A DNA stretch of 47,846 nucleotides, from the IMG/VR virus record IMGVR_UViG_3300037961_002446, positions 1-47,846 of that record; one strand, written 5' to 3'. Position numbers and translations under genes: made by a program. Below are positions 15,493 to 23,814 of the stretch, piece by piece. This DNA is from a virus. Numbering within the stretch: position 1 is the stretch's first letter; every line of letters begins with the position of its first letter. A model generated the notes under the pieces. It was not told the DNA's origin. It made no database searches and was given only the letters and a program-made list of their open reading frames with translations.

Positions 15493-15699
15493 ATGATTAA
15501 GTTGAGAATTTTGAATGAAACAGGACACACAGAACTAACTATGGAAAGTAGTGAAGTTATTGAGCAAATTATTACGCACCCAACCCATTGGTGTTTTATT
15601 GATGGGGAAATGGTAGCGAGAGAAGATATTACTAACATTAATTGGGACGAGGTTCAGTCAGTAGACTTGACCCCTGCAATTGTTGGGGGAAGCCTCTAA
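15493..15699 (+). CDS. Ubiquitin/MoaD-like beta-grasp protein with Gly-Gly tail
   Basis: A 68-residue protein. The pattern fits a beta-grasp fold: strand pair MIKLRILNE / TELTME (2-17), helix EVIEQIITH (21-29), strand WCFIDGEMVA (33-42), and a last strand DEVQSVDLTPAIVGG (52-66). That ending closely resembles MoaD/ThiS tails (DEV...P.I.GG). Gly65-Gly66 is followed by Ser-Leu, so the conjugation-competent tail would need trimming by a protease such as the JAMM enzyme at 23158. An E1-like enzyme is at 20849. A GTG nine bases upstream is an alternative start; the ATG gives the cleaner first strand. It could be a protein modifier or a sulfur carrier. Confidence 0.65.
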   Translation: MIKLRILNETGHTELTMESSEVIEQIITHPTHWCFIDGEMVAREDITNINWDEVQSVDLTPAIVGGSL

Positions 15700-15712
15700 G
15701 TTAGACAATAAC

Positions 15713-15804
15713 TTTCCTAACTCCCTTTTTGGAGGGGTAGTTTCTGAACTCTTAAGCCTTTAGAGCAAGGCTTAGGACACTAGGAAATTGCCCCTCCTTT
15801 TTTT
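15713..15804 (+). ncRNA. Pseudoknot or switch-like leader before ribonucleotide reductase
   Basis: Three complementary pairs: TTTCCTA (15713-15719) with TAGGAAA (15781-15787), GGAGGGG (15731-15737) with CCCCTCC (15791-15797), and TAAGCCT (15753-15759) with AGGCTTA (15768-15774). The first two interleave, giving a pseudoknot or two exclusive folds. A local CTCC...GGAG alternative also exists. The CCCCTCC arm runs into seven Ts, a terminator-like end. The unit lies between the ubiquitin-like gene and the reductase, so it may attenuate the latter or terminate the former. Confidence 0.5.
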
Positions 15805-15881
15805 ATTTTAATTATGCGGGTTATCTTTATCCCCTAAACTTGTTTAGGATAAAATACGCCCAAAATACAGGAGGACAGAAC

Positions 15882-17735
15882 ATGAATAAGAAGATATTAT
15901 CAGACATTATTGTGCATATGAAGTATGCCAAATTTATACCGGAAAAAGAAAGAAGAGAAACTTGGGAAGAGTTGATTGAGAGAAATATGCAAATGCATAT
16001 TAAGAAATATCCTCAACTAGAAAAAGACATTAGAGATGTATATGCTCATTTTGTTTTGCCTAAGAAAGTATTACCCTCTATGCGCTCATTACAATTTGGT
16101 GGAAAGCCTATTGAGATGAGTCCTAACAGGGTTTACAATTGTGCTTATATGCCAATTGATTCATATTTTGCATTTAACGAGGCTATGTTCCTATTACTAG
16201 GTGGAACAGGTGTAGGTTATTCTGTTCAACGACACCATGTTGAACAATTACCTGAAATTCAAAAGCCAAACAAAGATAGAACCCGTAGATATTTAATCGC
16301 TGATTCTATTGAAGGTTGGGCTGATGCAGTTAAGATTCTAATGGAATGTTATATGGGAGTTAGGAAATCTACTCCTATCTTTGATTATTCCGATATACGA
16401 GAAAAGGGTGCATTATTGATTACATCAGGAGGAAAAGCACCCGGCCCACAACCATTAAGAGAATGTTTAGTTGTTATTGAGGGAATACTACAGAATATTC
16501 CTAACGGTAGCAAATTAAGACCTATTGATGCACATGATATTATGTGTCATATCGCTGATGCAGTTCTTAGTGGTGGGATTAGACGAGCCGCTATGATTAG
16601 TTTGTTTTCAGCAGATGATAATGAAATGATTTCTTGTAAATCTGGGAAATGGTGGGAACTAAATCCTCAAAGAGGTAGAGCAAACAATTCAGCAGTATTG
16701 CTTAGACATAGAATTACTAAAGAATATTTCATGGATTTGTGGGCTAGAATTAAAGCATCAGGAAGCGGAGAACCCGGAATTTATTTCAATAATGACAAAG
16801 ATTGGGGAACTAATCCTTGTTGTGAAATTGCTTTGCGTCCTTATCAGTTTTGTAATCTTACAGAAGTCAATGCTTCTGATGTAAAAGACCAAGCGGATTT
16901 AGAAGCAAGAGTTAGTGCGGCTTCGTTCTTAGGAACGCTACAAGCGGGCTATACTGATTTCCACTATCTAAGAGAAGTATGGCAAAGAACAACTGAAAAG
17001 GATTCTTTGTTGGGAGTATCTATGACAGGTATTGCTTCTAATATTGTAGAGAAACTAGATTTAGAAATGGCCGCTTTAGAAGTAAAGAAAGAGAATGAAA
17101 AGACTGCTAAGTTGATAGGAATTAATCCTGCGGCTAGAACTACTTGTGTTAAACCTGCGGGAACAACTTCACTTGTTTTAGGAACAAGTAGTGGTATTCA
17201 TGCTTGGCATAATGACTTCTATATCCGAAGAGTAAGAGTAGGAAAGAATGAAGCGATTTATGGCTACCTTTCAAGAGAACACCCTGAATTGGTAGAAGAT
17301 GAAATCTTTAGTCCACATGATACGGCAGTAATTTCTGTTCCTCAGAAAGCACCTGTTAATGCTATTACACGACATGAATCTGTATTTGATTTACTAGAGC
17401 GTGTAAAGAATTTCAGCATTAGATGGGTTAGAACAGGCCACAATGACGGTCTAAACACTCACAATGTTTCAGCAACTATTTCCATTAAGAATAATGAATG
17501 GGAAGAAGTAGCAGAATGGTTTTGGCTAAACCGTCATTATTATAATGGGTTGTCTGTATTGCCTTATGATGGAGGCACATACGACCAAGCACCCTTTGAA
17601 GACTGTAAAGAAGAAGTCTTTGAAGAACTTTCTAATTCCCTAACAAGCGTAGACCTAACTAAGGTAGTAGAAACTACAGATGAAACTAACCTTAGTGGTG
17701 AATTGGCTTGTGCGGGAGGACAATGTGAAATTTAA
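15882..17735 (+). CDS. nrdJ: Class II (adenosylcobalamin-dependent) ribonucleotide reductase
   Basis: A 617-residue enzyme converting ribonucleotides to deoxyribonucleotides for virus DNA synthesis. Seen: MRSLQFGG and VYNCAYMPI near the N-terminus (first active-site Cys), LLLGGTGVGYSVQ, GTNPCCEI in the middle (radical-bearing Cys region), PAGTTSLVLGTSSGIH, and a C-terminal redox pair CAGGQC. The single-chain organisation resembles the monomeric triphosphate reductases. The start is set at 15882 because a strong CAGGAGGAC lies just before it. No small subunit or activase gene is visible, as expected for class II. It needs B12 from the host or the environment. Confidence 0.9.
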   Translation: MNKKILSDIIVHMKYAKFIPEKERRETWEELIERNMQMHIKKYPQLEKDIRDVYAHFVLPKKVLPSMRSLQFGGKPIEMSPNRVYNCAYMPIDSYFAFNEAMFLLLGGTGVGYSVQRHHVEQLPEIQKPNKDRTRRYLIADSIEGWADAVKILMECYMGVRKSTPIFDYSDIREKGALLITSGGKAPGPQPLRECLVVIEGILQNIPNGSKLRPIDAHDIMCHIADAVLSGGIRRAAMISLFSADDNEMISCKSGKWWELNPQRGRANNSAVLLRHRITKEYFMDLWARIKASGSGEPGIYFNNDKDWGTNPCCEIALRPYQFCNLTEVNASDVKDQADLEARVSAASFLGTLQAGYTDFHYLREVWQRTTEKDSLLGVSMTGIASNIVEKLDLEMAALEVKKENEKTAKLIGINPAARTTCVKPAGTTSLVLGTSSGIHAWHNDFYIRRVRVGKNEAIYGYLSREHPELVEDEIFSPHDTAVISVPQKAPVNAITRHESVFDLLERVKNFSIRWVRTGHNDGLNTHNVSATISIKNNEWEEVAEWFWLNRHYYNGLSVLPYDGGTYDQAPFEDCKEEVFEELSNSLTSVDLTKVVETTDETNLSGELACAGGQCEI

Positions 17736-17744
17736 GGTGATACT

Positions 17745-18104
17745 ATGCCAAGACTCTTCAAAGATTATGAAGAGTGTTTAAGCGTAATAATAACAATAAT
17801 GAAAGACTTTAATGTAAGTCATCAGAATAGAATAGGATTAGCAATAAATGTCTGTGATTCTTTAGTAGATGATACAGATAAAATATTCAGATTATACACT
17901 CCGTTTAAAGAAATGTTATGGAAGATACCCGAAGCGGTAGAAATGGGATTTGACCAATATATGAGGCGAGAAATACCTAGAATAGTAGATATGTTAGAAT
18001 ACCATGATGCGAATTGTAATGGAAATTGTAAGATTTGTGATGACAGAATAAGAGTAATTGATAATATGCATGAGGCGATTTACGGTGAAAGAGAAAGACC
18101 CTGA
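17745..18104 (+). CDS. Hypothetical protein with C-terminal cysteine cluster
   Basis: A 119-residue helical protein following the reductase by 9 bp. CNGNCKIC near residue 92 suggests a metal site. No family recognised; co-transcription with the reductase is likely. Confidence 0.65.
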   Translation: MPRLFKDYEECLSVIITIMKDFNVSHQNRIGLAINVCDSLVDDTDKIFRLYTPFKEMLWKIPEAVEMGFDQYMRREIPRIVDMLEYHDANCNGNCKICDDRIRVIDNMHEAIYGERERP

Positions 18105-18246
18105 ATATACTACCACAGGTAGAAGAAATACAAAGATAGCAACCCGTTGTAGGGTTTGTGGCGGGAAATTATATTCCGCACAAGAAATCAAAAAAGAAAT
18201 CCACGATGAATGCGATGTGGATAATACTAATATGTATATGATGTGA
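18070..18246 (+). CDS. Small zinc-binding protein
   Basis: About 58 residues with CRVCGGKLYSAQEI followed by HDEC, a one-site zinc knuckle. The start is uncertain: ATG 18070 overlaps the upstream gene by 35 bp, and a GTG at 18085 is possible. Function unknown. Confidence 0.5.
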   Translation: MRRFTVKEKDPEYTTTGRRNTKIATRCRVCGGKLYSAQEIKKEIHDECDVDNTNMYMM

Positions 18247-18250
18247 TAAA

Positions 18251-19411
18251 ATGGAAATAAGAATAAGAAAAGCAAACGATGGTGGAGGACACTATACTAC
18301 AACTATTAGTTGTAAAGACGCAGTAAGGTCTAGAGATACTACTATACCTATGTTAAGACAAGCAAAAGACCCTATTCATGCAGGTATTGTTCAGTTTTGG
18401 CAGAAGTCGTTATCTACTCGTAGTAATTACTATGCTGATTTTAGTATGCCTAGCAGATATAATACTGTAATTATGATAGGAACTTGTCCTGTTGCTATTG
18501 AGAAAACTAAGAACCGCTACTACATTAATGGTAAGCCTGAAAACCTTGCTTCTATTTGTCATGTATTGGCTAGACTAACATACAAGTCTTGTTTTGAAAA
18601 AGACCCTGCTAAACTAATGAAGAGTGTTTATGCGAGTCTTGCTATACCTGAAAATGTAAAGTATGTTTTGGAAAACAGATTCCCATATTTCTTCTATGAT
18701 AATTATGTCAAGTATGAAGTAAGGCTTCCTGTTATGATGATTGGTGATGATGAAGTCGCAATAGAAGTAGCAGATGGAGTTTGGGGAACATTAACCATCA
18801 AACAACTAGTCAAGTTATGTTCTTTCTATGTAGAAGGTAAAAAGAGAGGTAAACTAAAGTATCTTTCACCTTCTAAGTTGTATGAATTAACTATGGGTAG
18901 AAAGCCCCTAGATTCTGATTTGAAGGTGATGCTTGAGTTCCTTAAACAAAACCGAATGAAGGATATTGTAGATAAAAGAGCCATTGAATTAGTTAATGAC
19001 TTGTTGCTACAACACGGAGGTAGACTCAAAGCAGAATATGATGATAATGGTCAGCCTGAAACTATCTATGTTAGAGGTAAAGACTATGATTGGAAACTTA
19101 CTTCTAACTCATATAAATCAGACATACAGATGGTTTCTACATTCGTTTGGCAACCTGATTATGTTGATGAAACTGTATTAGATGAAAACGGAGAAGAAAC
19201 AGACCAAACTATTAGAGTTCAAAACGGTGCTTCATGGAAAGGGCCGATATGTATAGATAATATGGCTTCAGGTTCTCCATTGGGCGACCAATTTGCGGCT
19301 AGAGCATTAGCATTATTGAACGATTCCTTTACAATAACAATAGTAAATACAATAAAACGGTATTTGACCGAGAATAAGAATGAATGTAGGTTTGATATGA
19401 ATGAAGTGTAG
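18251..19411 (+). CDS. 386-residue hypothetical protein upstream of TFB
   Basis: A long mixed alpha/beta protein with no motif I recognise. The N-terminus is KANDGGGHYTTTI, the middle is aromatic and charged (NRFPYFFYDNYVKYEVRL), and there is an acidic insert near residue 310 (DETVLDENGEETDQ). It overlaps the TFB start by 11 bp, so the two are coupled and may act together in transcription, but nothing in the sequence proves that. Confidence 0.7.
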   Translation: MEIRIRKANDGGGHYTTTISCKDAVRSRDTTIPMLRQAKDPIHAGIVQFWQKSLSTRSNYYADFSMPSRYNTVIMIGTCPVAIEKTKNRYYINGKPENLASICHVLARLTYKSCFEKDPAKLMKSVYASLAIPENVKYVLENRFPYFFYDNYVKYEVRLPVMMIGDDEVAIEVADGVWGTLTIKQLVKLCSFYVEGKKRGKLKYLSPSKLYELTMGRKPLDSDLKVMLEFLKQNRMKDIVDKRAIELVNDLLLQHGGRLKAEYDDNGQPETIYVRGKDYDWKLTSNSYKSDIQMVSTFVWQPDYVDETVLDENGEETDQTIRVQNGASWKGPICIDNMASGSPLGDQFAARALALLNDSFTITIVNTIKRYLTENKNECRFDMNEV

Positions 19412-20255
19412 TGAATGTGGTTCAATTAAAATTACCTTTGACGAAAGGTTAGGAGAAAAGTGTTGTGCTGAATGTGGTTTAGTCCTCATTACAGGAATGT
19501 TTGAAGAAACAGTTTCACCTGTAGAAAGAGGCGAAGGCTACAATGTAAAACATAGTGCTGATAAAGGAAAGTTAGGTTCTATTATTACAGGTAGAGGTTC
19601 TAGTAAATTTGCTAGGTCTAACCAAAATAGGTCAAGACACATTGTTGCAGGTATAGCACATTGTAATATGGTAATGTCTAGTCTAAAACTACCGATGAAT
19701 CTTTCTGAAAGAATAGAAAAGGTGTATATGGAGTTGTATAGGCTTCATATGCTACGCTCGTTTACTCTTGAAGAAAGAGCAACTGCTATTGTGTTTTATG
19801 TTCTGAAAGAAAACGGAACACCACAACCAATGAAAGAAGTTGCTTCTGAATTCCAAGTAAATGTAAACAGGTCTATGAAACTAGTTAGGAAGATAAATCA
19901 GTTCTTTAGAAACTCAATCCACTATGCTCATGAAGATGGGACTTTCTTAATGCAACAAACTGCGAGAAAGATTACAGATGAACCTCAGTTTATCCATCAA
20001 TGTCATAAAGTCATGGAGCATTTTGAAGCGAAAGTAATTACTTCTGACTTTAACAAAGGCCGATGCTATTATGCGGCTATGTCTGTTATTGCTACAGAAG
20101 TGTTTGTGAGAGGATATTCTTGTAAGTATATTGCTGAAAAGACAGGATTCCACAGGACTAAGATTGGTAAAGAATGTAAGAAGATACTTGCTTTGATTGG
20201 AGTAGATTCAGTCAAAGAATTGAAAGGTCAAGAACTTAGTAAAATAGGTGAATAA
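19401..20255 (+). CDS. tfb: Transcription factor B (TFIIB-like)
   Basis: A 284-residue basal factor that recruits RNA polymerase to TATA-bound promoters. Seen: an N-terminal zinc ribbon (CSECGS...CCAECG, residues 3-25), a linker with KGKLGSIITGRG like the B-reader region, then two cyclin-like repeats (about 75-170 and 185-275), the second ending in YSCKYIAEKTGFHRTKIGKE as a helix-turn-helix. Length is close to cellular TFB. A virus-specific TFB could direct host polymerase to the distinctive promoters seen here. Confidence 0.88.
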   Translation: MKCSECGSIKITFDERLGEKCCAECGLVLITGMFEETVSPVERGEGYNVKHSADKGKLGSIITGRGSSKFARSNQNRSRHIVAGIAHCNMVMSSLKLPMNLSERIEKVYMELYRLHMLRSFTLEERATAIVFYVLKENGTPQPMKEVASEFQVNVNRSMKLVRKINQFFRNSIHYAHEDGTFLMQQTARKITDEPQFIHQCHKVMEHFEAKVITSDFNKGRCYYAAMSVIATEVFVRGYSCKYIAEKTGFHRTKIGKECKKILALIGVDSVKELKGQELSKIGE

Positions 20256-20256
20256 G

Positions 20257-20400
20257 ATGAAAGATAAAGAAAAGATATTGATGTGGCTTAGGAAGTTTAT
20301 TGATGATATTACTGATGTAGAGGTAGACGGTGAAATACTCCGTTTATCTGTGCATGGAAAAACTGTGGGGATAATTACCCATCAAAAAATATGGAAGTGA
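20257..20400 (+). CDS. Small hypothetical protein
   Basis: A 47-residue protein (MKDKEKILMWLRKFIDD...) between TFB and the 20405 gene, one base after the TFB stop. A helix and a beta-hairpin are suggested. Function unknown. Confidence 0.5.
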   Translation: MKDKEKILMWLRKFIDDITDVEVDGEILRLSVHGKTVGIITHQKIWK

Positions 20401-20404
20401 AAAT

Positions 20405-20668
20405 ATGTTAAAGAATAAAGATGGAAAATTGTATGTAGGAGATAAAGAAGTTATCAAAGGGTATGAATCGTTTAGCGGTTGGTATTGGTTTGTGACTGAA
20501 ATAGAAGAAGAAGATTATGGAGGACACCCTCTATACTTTGGTTATGTTCAAGGATTTGCAGATGAATGGGGAACATTTTGGCATGGAGAACTACAACCGC
20601 TAATTGAACAAGGTAGAGTTTGGGAGATTAATGAAGTAGATTTGCCTCATGCAGGAAGGAGAGATTAA
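20405..20668 (+). CDS. Small aromatic-rich protein, DUF2958-like pattern
   Basis: An 87-residue protein. The run W-Y-W-F-V-T-E-I-E followed by PLYFGYVQGFADEWG-F and EINEVDLPH recalls DUF2958 proteins (WxxTExD...FG...ELG...L), which occur in mobile elements. The match is by eye and the protein is shorter. It lies just upstream of the E1-like gene. Confidence 0.5.
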   Translation: MLKNKDGKLYVGDKEVIKGYESFSGWYWFVTEIEEEDYGGHPLYFGYVQGFADEWGTFWHGELQPLIEQGRVWEINEVDLPHAGRRD

Positions 20669-20669
20669 G

Positions 20670-20852
20670 TTGCTAAAGAAAGATTATGTAAATATGACTA
20701 ATTATTTAGTTGAATATATATTGAAATTTGAAGGTAGTTGCACAGGTTATGTGCCTACCCAAAAAGCGAAGGAAGAAGTAATTTACAGTATAAAACGAAT
20801 TATGGAAAATTGTGGAGTAGAATTTAAATCAAAAAGGAAGTGGTATGAATGA
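20670..20852 (+). CDS. Small helical protein, TTG start likely
   Basis: About 60 residues. The frame is open from an ATG at 20649 inside the previous gene, but AGGAAGGAGAG sits directly before the TTG at 20670, which begins right after the 20668 stop. Overlaps the E1-like gene by 4 nt. Function unknown. Confidence 0.55.
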   Translation: MLKKDYVNMTNYLVEYILKFEGSCTGYVPTQKAKEEVIYSIKRIMENCGVEFKSKRKWYE

Positions 20853-21412
20853 GAAAAGTATTAGTTATTGGAGCAGGTGGAATTGGAAGTTTTCTGATTC
20901 CTGTATTAGATAGAGTAGGTTTGTATGATATTACAGTAGCCGACCCTGATAAGGTAGAAACAAAGAACCTACCATATCAGAATTTTAAAATTGTTAGTGT
21001 TGGTCAAAACAAAGCCACCAACATGGCAGATAATTATAGCGGTTCAGTAAATAAGGCAATTCAATTCCCTATTCTTAGTGAAAAACAAATGCAAGGATAT
21101 GACTTGGTTATTTGTTGTGTAGATAATATTGGACTAAGACGAACCATGTATAATTGTAAAGATTTGAAATGGTTAGATTTGAGAGCGCAAGGTCGTAATG
21201 CGGCTATGGTATCTTATACTGCTGACCCTAAAATGTATGATACATTGTTAGCAGGTGAAGAACGGTCATTTAGTTGTCAAGGAGATTCTTGGGACGGTTC
21301 AAACAAAGGAGTTCATTTCATGCAAGTTGCTATTGCAGGAATGGGCGCACAATGGGTTCAGCGTTGGTTTAACGGTGAAGAGGTTTGTGATTTTAAGGTG
21401 GTGAATGTATGA
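20849..21412 (+). CDS. E1/ThiF/MoeB-like adenylating enzyme (compact)
   Basis: A 187-residue Rossmann-type protein. GAGGIGS (8-14) is the nucleotide loop, D32 with PDKVETKNLPYQ matches the D.D.V...NL.RQ signature, K55 is in the usual place, and VICCVDN (87-93) matches the C/D-T-D-N strand end. Cysteines at 103, 143 and 180 are possible catalytic or metal residues. It is shorter than typical E1 or ThiF proteins, and the Arg of the RQ motif is Tyr (NLPYQ). It would adenylate the Gly-Gly tail of a ubiquitin-like protein, fitting 15493-15699. Activity is inferred. Confidence 0.75.
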   Translation: MRKVLVIGAGGIGSFLIPVLDRVGLYDITVADPDKVETKNLPYQNFKIVSVGQNKATNMADNYSGSVNKAIQFPILSEKQMQGYDLVICCVDNIGLRRTMYNCKDLKWLDLRAQGRNAAMVSYTADPKMYDTLLAGEERSFSCQGDSWDGSNKGVHFMQVAIAGMGAQWVQRWFNGEEVCDFKVVNV

Positions 21413-21675
21413 AGCACATAGATGAGGAAGAACAAAAACAGATTAAGATTAACTCAATTAGAGAGAGTATTCCTACACTCGTTGCACAGATTACTATGGT
21501 ATCTACCACAGACTATTCAGATGTTATTACTGATGAGGAGAGGGCGGTTTTGAATCTACTTAACTTATCAATTGACGCATTAGGTAGTGATTATGATGAT
21601 GAAACTGCTCTTAATTGGTGGAACGGAACACTAAAGACACTAGAAACACTACCTAGATGGGGGTCATATTGGTGA
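21409..21675 (+). CDS. Small acidic helical protein
   Basis: An 88-residue protein coupled to the E1-like gene by an ATGA overlap. Helical, with NWWNGTLKTLETLPRWG at the C-terminus. It has no Cys, so it is not an E2-like enzyme. Function unknown. Confidence 0.6.
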   Translation: MKHIDEEEQKQIKINSIRESIPTLVAQITMVSTTDYSDVITDEERAVLNLLNLSIDALGSDYDDETALNWWNGTLKTLETLPRWGSYW

Positions 21676-21884
21676 AATACACCGAAGATGACATAGGAAG
21701 AACAATTGACATAGACGATAATAAAGGCTCAACATACGATGAAAGAATTGTTATGGTTTATTGTCAAATTTGTGGCTCAAAATATATTGGGCCAATTCAT
21801 GAAGCGGGAGGGTTTCTCGCTAGACATGATTTCTTTCACAAGTGGGAATTTACAATGGAAATGAGCGAACATTTGGAGGCATAA
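21672..21884 (+). CDS. Small zinc-finger-like protein, GTG start
   Basis: A 70-residue protein starting at a GTG that overlaps the preceding stop (GTGA). CQICGSKYIG with downstream HEAGGFLARHDFFH gives a C2H2-like zinc site. Function unknown. Confidence 0.6.
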   Translation: MKYTEDDIGRTIDIDDNKGSTYDERIVMVYCQICGSKYIGPIHEAGGFLARHDFFHKWEFTMEMSEHLEA

Positions 21885-21886
21885 AT

Positions 21887-23158
21887 ATGAATGGAAAAAA
21901 ATACACAGAAGAAGAAATAGCATATATGATTACAAGGCGACAAAAAGGGTGGACTTTTGCTAAGATAGCAAGAAGAATGTCTACTAAGTTTGGAACACCT
22001 AGAACTCAAGCAACCGTATATCAAAAATACAAGAGAGTTGTAGGAGATAGGGTTAATAGAAAACCTAAGCAAGTCGTCAAAGAAAAGAAAGAATACATGG
22101 CTTGGCCTGTTGAACAAGTGAATTTTATTCACCAATGTTATCATAATGGTTTTTCTATAGATAAGAGCAAGCAAGCATTTACTGAACAATTTAAGAAGAG
22201 TATTTCTACAAGACAATATAATTATCTCTTGTATAATAAAACCCCTTCTATCGGTAAAAAGGTAAGAGATGCTTCTAAGCCTAAGAAAGGAACGCCATAC
22301 ACTCAGCAAGAAATTAATTTAATCTTGAAGTGTAAAAGTGGTAAAGAAGCAGAAAAGTATTCTGAAACCTTTGGGCGAACAAAAGGAGCATTAAACAGAC
22401 AATGGTATGCTCTTAAAGAAAAACAAACTAACCGTCAAGGTTGGAATACTAAGAAAGTAGTTATTGATGCTGATTTGTTAGCCGCAGGTCTTTCTGATAG
22501 AAATGGCTATTCTAAGGCACAAAGAAAACTATTGCCTTTGAAGGTTGTTTGGCCACCTAAGAAAGGTGATGTTCAACGCCTAATAGGTAAGAAGATTTCA
22601 AAGAAGAACGCTGACAAGTTTGTTGAGTTGAAAAATAAGCATCTTAAGAGTGTAAAAACAAAAGTAAACGGTGATAAGCATAATACTGTAGAATATCATT
22701 TACCTGAGAAAAAGAATTGGATTAAGGATAGAGCGATTCATGCTACATATCCTCCTGAACCTCTTGAATCTCAACTAAGGAACAGTTCAGTTATTGATAT
22801 GCTTCAAAACATGATGAATGACAATAAAGGATTTTGGACGAATGAAAAGGATTTGGATTTACTAATCAATTTCTATGATTTGACTATTGATGAGGCTACA
22901 GAAAGATATGCCACAACTTACGGTAATATCGCTTCAAGACTAGAAACCTTGATTAACTCCAATAACCCCGACAAAATTGCCCTAGTTATGAAGGCCTCTA
23001 AAGCCGTCAAAAAGAATAGGGCAAAACAGGTCAAGGAATCAAAACCAAGCCGTAGAGAGCGAAGGAAACAAGCAAAAGAGGCAAGGAAAGCCAAGCGGGA
23101 GCAAAAGAGAATTGACAAACTTAAGAATAAAATTAAGAAATTGGAAGGTGATGAATAA
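21887..23158 (+). CDS. Basic DNA-binding-like protein with Myb/SANT-type repeats
   Basis: A 423-residue basic protein starting MNGKKYTEEEIAYM after TTGGAGGCA. Repeated three-helix units of Myb/SANT or homeodomain type seem present: YTEEEIAYMITRRQKGWTFA (about 5-45), a second near WPVEQVNFIHQCY (75-115), a third at YTQQEINLILKCKSGKEAEK (140-175), and a weaker one at WTNEKDLDLLINFYDLTIDE (320-360). The tail (365-423) is very rich in K and R. Probably binds DNA; target unknown. Confidence 0.6.
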   Translation: MNGKKYTEEEIAYMITRRQKGWTFAKIARRMSTKFGTPRTQATVYQKYKRVVGDRVNRKPKQVVKEKKEYMAWPVEQVNFIHQCYHNGFSIDKSKQAFTEQFKKSISTRQYNYLLYNKTPSIGKKVRDASKPKKGTPYTQQEINLILKCKSGKEAEKYSETFGRTKGALNRQWYALKEKQTNRQGWNTKKVVIDADLLAAGLSDRNGYSKAQRKLLPLKVVWPPKKGDVQRLIGKKISKKNADKFVELKNKHLKSVKTKVNGDKHNTVEYHLPEKKNWIKDRAIHATYPPEPLESQLRNSSVIDMLQNMMNDNKGFWTNEKDLDLLINFYDLTIDEATERYATTYGNIASRLETLINSNNPDKIALVMKASKAVKKNRAKQVKESKPSRRERRKQAKEARKAKREQKRIDKLKNKIKKLEGDE

Positions 23159-23814
23159 TGAGTAAGAGTAGTGATTGGGCTTTGAGAGAACAAGAGAAGA
23201 ATGGTGATGATGACGGGTATGATGCTTACCTTAATGAAATAGAAATTGCTAAAGCGGAAGCAGAATTTGAGGCTCTAGAAAAGGCTAGAGAAAAGGCTGA
23301 ACAACACATTTTAGAAAAATGGTTTCATAATGCGAATCTAGAATTAGAATCAGTCAATCATCATAATGATTGGGAATTGACTTGGGAAGACCGAGATAAA
23401 TTAGATTTTACATACTTTAGAAGTGAAGATTTCTTTAGTGCTATTTGGCATTCTTCTACAGAAATACTACCTAATCTTGAAGTGCAAGTAGTTATTGATG
23501 GTAAGAATAATTGTTATGTTTCTACAGGTTCATCAGGATATGTGGAGTTTGGAATGAAACCTCCTATTGGTATGACTTTACCGATTAAGTGTTGGATTCA
23601 TACCCACCCGTTTGGTAGTGCTTACTTTAGTGGTGTAGATATTAGAACAGTATCTAATTGGCAACCTCTAATGAAAGAAGCCTTTGTTTTAGGTGGTTGG
23701 GAATATGACCACTACGGTTATTGGCAACAATCTAATCCTAAGCAACTAGAGATTTATCGTAATGCGGAAGTAGAAAGAATACAGACATGGGGGAATGTAA
23801 ATGAGGAAGAATAG
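23158..23814 (+). CDS. JAMM/MPN+ metalloprotease (deubiquitinase-like)
   Basis: A 218-residue protein. Residues 1-80 are charged and helical. The rest carries a complete JAMM motif: His148-Thr-His150-Pro, then Ser158 and Asp161 (H-x-H-x7-S-x2-D). Glu102, 46 residues before the first His, is a good candidate for the catalytic Glu. JAMM enzymes cut after the Gly-Gly of ubiquitin-like proteins. Here the likely substrate is the Gly-Gly-Ser-Leu tail of 15493-15699 or its conjugates. Starts at the stop of the Myb-like gene (TAATG). Confidence 0.8.
   Translation: MSKSSDWALREQEKNGDDDGYDAYLNEIEIAKAEAEFEALEKAREKAEQHILEKWFHNANLELESVNHHNDWELTWEDRDKLDFTYFRSEDFFSAIWHSSTEILPNLEVQVVIDGKNNCYVSTGSSGYVEFGMKPPIGMTLPIKCWIHTHPFGSAYFSGVDIRTVSNWQPLMKEAFVLGGWEYDHYGYWQQSNPKQLEIYRNAEVERIQTWGNVNEEE

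Follow-up and report, generated by a model that had tools for sequence, protein, structure and literature searches.

The window analysed here (47,846 nucleotides, positions 1 to 47,846 of the IMG/VR virus record IMGVR_UViG_3300037961_002446, whose full length is 94,178 bases) is part of a magrovirus, a tailed virus of Marine Group II (MG-II) archaea, the Poseidoniales. On one strand it exhibits three genes corresponding to a ubiquitin-like protein (Ubl), a compact E1/ThiF-like enzyme and a JAMM metalloprotease. An earlier note on this DNA had proposed that the three could form a ubiquitin-like pathway, and translation yields all three proteins as the note had read them. The genes and their predicted functional sites are the following:

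15493-15699, + strand: Ubl, 68-residue ubiquitin-like (beta-grasp) modifier ending V-G-G-S-L
15685-15690, + strand: codons of Ubl Gly65-Gly66, predicted adenylation/conjugation site, with the Ser-Leu tail after it
20849-21412, + strand: compact E1/ThiF-like adenylating enzyme of 187 amino acids (aa), beginning at the Rossmann fold
21275-21277, + strand: Cys143 of the E1 (in S-C-Q), candidate catalytic cysteine
23158-23814, + strand: JAMM/MPN+ metalloprotease of 218 aa, its N-terminal half helical
23479-23640, + strand: JAMM catalytic region (E108, H148, H150, S158, D161), invariant in 85-86 of 86 homologues

Sequence features and predicted folds of the three proteins

The beta-grasp fold that the earlier note had surmised for the 68-residue protein is borne out by an AlphaFold2 model built from the family alignment (confidence score pLDDT 87.8). 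The model exhibits the topology bb-a-bb-a-b (strands 2-8 and 11-17; helix 19-28; strands 32-36 and 39-41; helix 43-48; strand 56-61) followed by a disordered tail. Its top Foldseek matches in the PDB are nearly all ubiquitin, SUMO, NEDD8, ISG15, MoaD, ThiS or a TtuB complex (probability up to 0.99, TM-scores 0.4-0.6), the TtuB complex having the top TM-score shown, 0.60. The Gly-Gly pair is invariant, in 63/63 of the distinct homologues first collected and in 68/68 of a later set. Its codons vary among GGA, GGC, GGT and GGG, and the constraint therefore acts on the protein. As a control, we counted proteins ending with Gly-Gly plus 0-3 residues in 28 small open reading frame (ORF) families of the collected magrovirus loci: the Ubl alone ends in this manner (68/68), the next best family reaching 13%. 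Among 53 non-redundant viral Ubls, the Gly-Gly is followed by no residue in 10, by one in 7 and by two in 36.

Sequence searches with the Ubl returned little. Its profile found no match among PDB sequences, and tblastn against phages gave a single chance match at E = 1. A model of the PinA inhibitor (Inhibitor_I24) is matched by 29 of 49 members of the Ubl family (best E-value 1.4e-4), the Ubl of the window falling below the cut-off. This match is weak and spans residues 8-55 without the Gly-Gly tail; we did not adopt it.

The protein encoded at 20849-21412 is ThiF-like, as had been noted from its motifs (Pfam ThiF, E-value = 1.8e-16, above the cut-off). A profile of the family retrieves from the PDB ThiF-type proteins, UBA5, the NEDD8 E1, MccB, Cap2, Uba4 and MoeB at E-values of 1e-9 to 1e-6, and the protein reaches the cut-off of no named E1 family. 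Eleven residues are invariant in the family: G8, G10, G11, G13, D32, D34, N40, Q44, K55, D92 and C143. The nucleotide-binding set of the ThiF fold (GxGGxGS, D, N, K, D) is present and invariant. Cys143 is the sole cysteine conserved across viral and host members and a candidate catalytic residue; in an alignment with UBA5 it is paired with a cysteine whose role is unsettled. In a phylogenetic analysis, the viral E1s group in a single clade (98/94) separate from the host E1s, a pattern better explained by one ancient acquisition or by shared descent than by repeated capture in recent times.

The JAMM motif HxHP-x6-SxxD is exact in the window protein. H148, H150, S158 and D161, which the earlier note had singled out, are invariant. 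The glutamate it had assigned, E102, varies, the catalytic one being E108 (86/86). The window protein scores below the Pfam Prok-JAB cut-off (E-value = 0.0073, 16.6 bits against a cut-off of 25), and 54 of 58 relatives match this model, weakly (best E-value 4e-5). The profile of the JAMM family matches AMSH-like proteases across the stretch W-I-H-T-H-P...A..S..D. Its AlphaFold2 model (pLDDT 87.8) has Foldseek top matches that are nearly all JAMM/MPN proteins (probability up to 0.99, E-value 5e-3), including Archaeoglobus fulgidus JAMM (AF2198), Caldiarchaeum Rpn11, AMSH and Pyrococcus furiosus JAMM1 (PfJAMM1). Fold and motif are nearest to those of enzymes that deconjugate, AMSH and Rpn11 for example. 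A tblastn search with the JAMM protein against phages gave no match, and the JAMM tree is less clean than the E1 tree. The 3' end of the gene (23803-23814) reads GAAGAAGAATGA or similar, exactly GAAGAAGAATGA in 53 of 73 loci, and gives a conserved Glu-Glu-Glu. We rejected this end as a functional tail; the stretch probably serves the following gene as its ribosome-binding site.

Conservation in magroviruses and in their hosts

Profile scans of the window identified a TFIIB-like factor, a class II ribonucleotide reductase (RNR), a chaperonin, an ATP-dependent DNA ligase and a clamp loader. The B-family DNA polymerase (PolB) is split across two genes, and a GroES-like ORF was recognised by eye alone. 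The assignment to the magroviruses follows from this gene content, which matches that described for the order Magrovirales, tailed viruses of MG-II archaea (PMC10768690, PMC12999244).

The co-occurrence that the earlier note had anticipated for related viral genomes is complete: Ubl, E1 and JAMM are all present in 73/73 magrovirus loci with distinct E1s, along with the TFIIB-like factor and a 386-aa protein, and GroES and GroEL come next in nearly all of them. The order Ubl-E1-JAMM on one strand is found in 120 loci, no locus having another order. As the 73 distinct loci had been collected through E1 or Ubl, a second sample was drawn through PolB. All three genes are present in 17 of its 20 records; the remaining three, contigs of 43-74 kb, seem to stop short of the region if the usual distances are taken as a guide, one of them having E1 and JAMM and stopping before the Ubl.

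A scan of cellular genomes for the E1 family led to chromosomes of Poseidoniales, among them the complete MG-II chromosome CM001443.1 (2.06 Mb). Among 194 Poseidoniales genomes then sampled, 92 have the E1, 91 the Ubl and 86 both (Fisher p = 6e-41, a value that overstates the number of independent events, given the shared ancestry of the genomes). In the hosts, the JAMM adjoins the E1 or is fused to it; it is present in 19 of 20 host genomes tested. In Thalassarchaeaceae, the Ubl is followed by a single ORF encoding an E1-JAMM fusion. Pairwise BLASTP of the window proteins against one such operon gives E-values of 4e-13 (Ubl), 2e-21 (E1) and 2e-13 (JAMM), and the viral and host Ubl families align with an hhalign E-value of 6.6e-20. 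In Poseidoniaceae, the E1 gene adjoins a separate JAMM gene, and the Ubl lies elsewhere as a tandem array: CM001443.1 has two units, several genomes have three and one (G101) has four. Each unit ends V/I-G-G and is joined to the next by a short linker; the Gly-Gly ends every host unit read except one (VFG, locus L390). In three genomes (G145, G115, G050), a single ORF encodes two Ubl units fused to the E1, and in G145 and G050 a JAMM gene and a small conserved helical gene come after it. The host genes sit in stable chromosomal surroundings, and many host genomes also have an ordinary MoeB/UbaA-like E1 of about 350-500 aa. Neither the tandem Ubl nor the E1-JAMM fusion of the hosts was found in viral contigs when sought by single-protein patterns.

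The host loci exhibit further features of their own. A fourth, helical-looking gene of about 80 aa directly follows E1-JAMM in 20/20 loci (L187 11148-11390, L182 11106-11408, L391 4021-4281). It exists in two lineage versions that align with each other (hhalign E-value 2.5e-6), and it was not found in viruses (best E-value 0.4). In Thalassarchaeaceae, a zinc-ribbon gene, TFB-like by eye, comes after the Ubl/E1-JAMM operon in 9 of 10 loci (L187 11470-12576). The genome with the exceptional VFG end (G122, L390 3276-5756) has a virus-like JAMM, 43% identical to a viral one, and its E1 lies a few genes on. Genes for UCH and RING proteins have been reported in one MG-II genome (Grau-Bove 2015); the Ubl-E1-JAMM set does not figure in the passages of that paper examined.

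In the viral genome, the region lies in the replication/transcription half, beside RNR, the TFIIB-like factor, GroES/GroEL, ligase, clamp loader and PolB. Two neighbours belong to the block conserved in 73/73 loci:

18251-19411, + strand: conserved 386-aa protein with an invariant Cys334 in GPICIDN, adjoining TFB and E1
19401-20255, + strand: TFIIB-like transcription factor (TFB; Zn_Ribbon_TF E-value 5.3e-6, below the cut-off)

The TFB marks an archaeal virus by its presence in the block and stands outside the Ubl/E1/JAMM system. The 386-aa protein has no Pfam, PHROG or PDB match and is at most a candidate member of the system. Megablast of 23 kb against phage records gave no match. Among the loci L179, L180, L181 and L191, magrovirus contigs are binned in bacterial metagenome-assembled genomes (Maricaulis IN14, Altibacter EAC109), and one from Verrucomicrobia contains a Poseidoniales-like contig. 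A record of double the usual genome size (IMGVR_UViG_3300021958_000021, 184,733 bp; L027, L114, L131) carries two differing Ubl/E1/JAMM sets about 93 kb apart, and probably represents two magroviruses merged in assembly.

A probable E2-free modification system and its alternatives

The gene set and its conservation, the predicted folds, the intact JAMM motifs and the homology to tandem and fused host genes lead us to regard the three genes as, rather probably, an E2-free ubiquitin-like modification system of the virus, one branch of a system that the Poseidoniales hosts encode as well. ThiF-type E1s adenylate the terminal glycine of a Ubl, and JAMM proteins cut after Gly-Gly. From these precedents we infer how adenylation, conjugation and deconjugation might proceed, and on what targets. 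The JAMM would trim the tail of one or two residues from the Ubl where a tail exists. The E1 would bind ATP and adenylate the C-terminal Gly66, and the activated Ubl, possibly via Cys143, would be handed straight to amino groups of target proteins, from which the JAMM would later remove it. By such means the virus may mark or shield early proteins of its own, or compete with host tagging. Removal of Ser-Leu by the JAMM, which the earlier note had emphasised, fits this scheme. It cannot be the whole role, because 10 of the 53 viral Ubls already end at Gly-Gly and the JAMM gene is intact in those viruses as well.

Several observations weigh against such a system. The viral Ubl gene lies 2-8 kb away from the E1-JAMM region. 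Neither an E2 nor an E3 was found, the E2 having been sought by profile, also in the 386-aa protein; the earlier note had likewise seen no E2. The 386-aa protein was considered as a candidate E2, being the sole conserved unassigned protein with an invariant cysteine, and was rejected as profiles give no E2 match. None of the Pfam and NCBIfam models of Ubl, ThiS or MoaD is matched by the viral Ubl. Its Foldseek E-values are modest, 3.6e-3 at best, which accords with a length of just 68 residues. The E1 begins at the Rossmann strand and so lacks the N-terminal arginine finger. It has Tyr43 (mostly histidine in hosts) where the N-L-x-R-Q of ThiF/MoeB-type enzymes has arginine, and it has no zinc-binding cysteine pairs. 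Canonical E1 catalysis is therefore not assured.

The most serious alternative, an unlikely one in our judgement, is a sulfur-carrier system of the ThiS/MoaD, QbsE or CysO type. The JAMM would then free the Gly-Gly or cut an amino-acid product off the carrier, and the E1 would make a thiocarboxylate, the sulfur going to a cofactor, a tRNA base or a small molecule. The size and strand order of the Ubl resemble ThiS/MoaD, with MoaD, ThiS and the TtuB complex among its fold matches, and the E1 is best matched by ThiF models. In the QbsE system, a JAMM protein removes a dipeptide after Gly-Gly, a precedent for the tail. Sulfur gene clusters with ThiS/MoaD-like, JAB and E1 genes have also been described (PMC1779556). 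We nevertheless prefer conjugation, for three reasons. First, the host tandem precursors, of up to four units, yield many modifiers per gene, which suits a modifier that is consumed and is unneeded by a catalytic carrier that is recycled; their resemblance to polyubiquitin precursors counts in the same direction. Second, viruses whose Ubl has no tail to trim retain the JAMM, which argues for a role beyond trimming, such as removal from targets. Third, and this is a weak point, the viral Ubl is almost lysine-free (1.2% lysine versus 5-8% in other viral proteins), a scarcity that would limit self-tagging and lysine-linked chains; ThiS-type carriers can be lysine-poor too. Sulfur carriage is also disfavoured by the E1, on which no rhodanese domain was seen, by the conserved block of the 73 loci, in which no sulfurtransferase or recipient enzyme was seen, and by the ordinary MoeB/UbaA-like E1 that many hosts possess in addition.

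An E2-free modification system could be taken a step further: virus and host would each encode a complete homologous Ubl conjugation system working with no E2, the host with polyubiquitin-like tandem precursors and the virus with a single-unit core copy that redirects or competes with host tagging. We consider this fuller version possible, at slightly less than an even chance.

Also unlikely is a purpose in counter-defence, a reading that overlaps the others since it concerns purpose. The host Ubl system would be an antiviral tagging system with which the viral copies interfere, the JAMM by acting as a deconjugase and the Ubl by serving as a decoy. The Ubl/E1/JAB systems of Bil, which is antiviral in bacteria, and CBASS (Cap2/Cap3) do serve in defence, the viral and host sets are homologous, and the host system is patchily distributed (92 of 194 genomes). 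Yet a blocker would need no E1 of its own, and the viral E1s make up a single ancient clade whose sites are conserved, not a fast-changing group. The stable chromosomal surroundings of the host genes do not favour a defence role either, and no PADLOC model covers the Ubl or the JAMM, the E1 matching just the adenylation part of E1-E2 models. The BilABCD defence system has been described (PMC11354881).

A role in virion or tail assembly, like that of lambda gpI/gpK, is very improbable: lambdoid phages do pair a Ubl with a JAB peptidase (PMC1779556) and domains of the tip attachment protein J are among the viral fold matches, but the three genes lie with the RNR, TFB, chaperonin and replication genes and not in a tail gene cluster, the E1 is always present, and homologues exist in host chromosomes. 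Chance resemblance of an unrelated small protein, a Rossmann protein and a metalloprotease, which the below-cut-off Pfam scores of the window's Ubl and JAMM and the weak PinA match might suggest, is refuted for practical purposes by the universal co-occurrence, the Gly-Gly control, the folds, and host homologues adjacent or fused in one locus.

If an E2-free modification system is indeed encoded, core genes for the Ubl, for the enzyme that activates it and for its protease would amount to a protein-modification pathway of the virus's own, beyond one stolen ubiquitin. Magroviruses count among the ocean's abundant tailed viruses, and their hosts form one of the commonest groups of marine archaea. 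It thereby becomes open to test whether Ubl conjugation runs without an E2, and why a virus needs it.

Comparison with known systems

A close parallel is the archaeal SAMP system (SAMP1/2, UbaA, HvJAMM1), which likewise has a Ubl with C-terminal Gly-Gly, a single E1, a JAMM and no E2; the suggestion of a SAMP-like, E2-less set in an archaeal tailed virus fits in this respect, and PfJAMM1 with SAMP2 (5lda) is among the fold matches of the viral JAMM. In contrast to the SAMP system, the set described here is found in a virus, and its hosts have tandem Ubls and fusions. The viral E1 scores 30.6 bits against a UbaA cut-off of 450 and is devoid of the N- and C-terminal parts of UbaA, and the Ubl is a separate sequence family. 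QbsC/QbsD/QbsE and CysO/Mec+ share the removal by a JAMM protein of residues after Gly-Gly and E1-like activation; here no biosynthetic partner genes were found, and the hosts have tandem Ubls. Bil and CBASS Cap2/Cap3 share an E1 adenylation domain and a JAB/JAMM peptidase, but they need an E2 domain or gene, of which none was found here. The PRTRC ThiF family (TIGR03736) is among the best named matches of the E1 (viral E-value 5e-11, host up to 3e-19), with scores under half the cut-off (42-69 versus 144.75 bits).

Prokaryotic Ubl-E1-JAMM sets are known, bacterial operons with tandem Ubls and JAB-E1 fusions having been described in 2006 (PMC1779556; see also PMC11354881). Those of class 6e (PMC1779556) resemble the Poseidoniales loci in their tandem Ubl of 2-3 units and JAB-E1 fusion. 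They are bacterial, and also contain a metal-binding protein and an E2-like domain that is inactive. No such inactive E2 was seen here, the host domain order is E1-JAMM, and the virus has a single Ubl and separate genes, tandem Ubl and fusion being confined to the hosts. The tandem Ubls and the Ubl-E1 and E1-JAMM fusions of the hosts resemble a pared-down version of the polyubiquitin arrangement that has no E2, and they occur in a lineage distant from the Asgard and Aigarchaeota systems on which discussion usually centres.

Among viruses, Crassvirales DAC15 has an E1-like gene, its product 27-29% identical to the viral E1, with a JAMM gene immediately ahead of it, and a similar pair exists in bajarodcaudo virus 1. 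In contrast to the magrovirus genes, the JAMM comes first, the E1 has an N-terminal extension and falls in a separate clade of the E1 tree, and no Ubl was found in DAC15. The Crassvirales pairs (L177 4598-6654, L178 4401-6660) are annotated as hypothetical, as "E1 enzyme family" or, in crAss relatives, as "thiamine biosynthesis protein".

ThiF, ubiquitin or JAB are unmentioned in the magrovirus and archaeal-virus literature examined; mention in key magrovirus papers is possible, and priority is not established. As far as the literature read allows us to judge, the Ubl family, which has no model in the libraries searched, is new, and so are the fixed presence of such a set in an order of archaeal viruses, the homologous host set with tandem precursors and E1 fusions, and the matching JAMM-E1 pair in Crassvirales.

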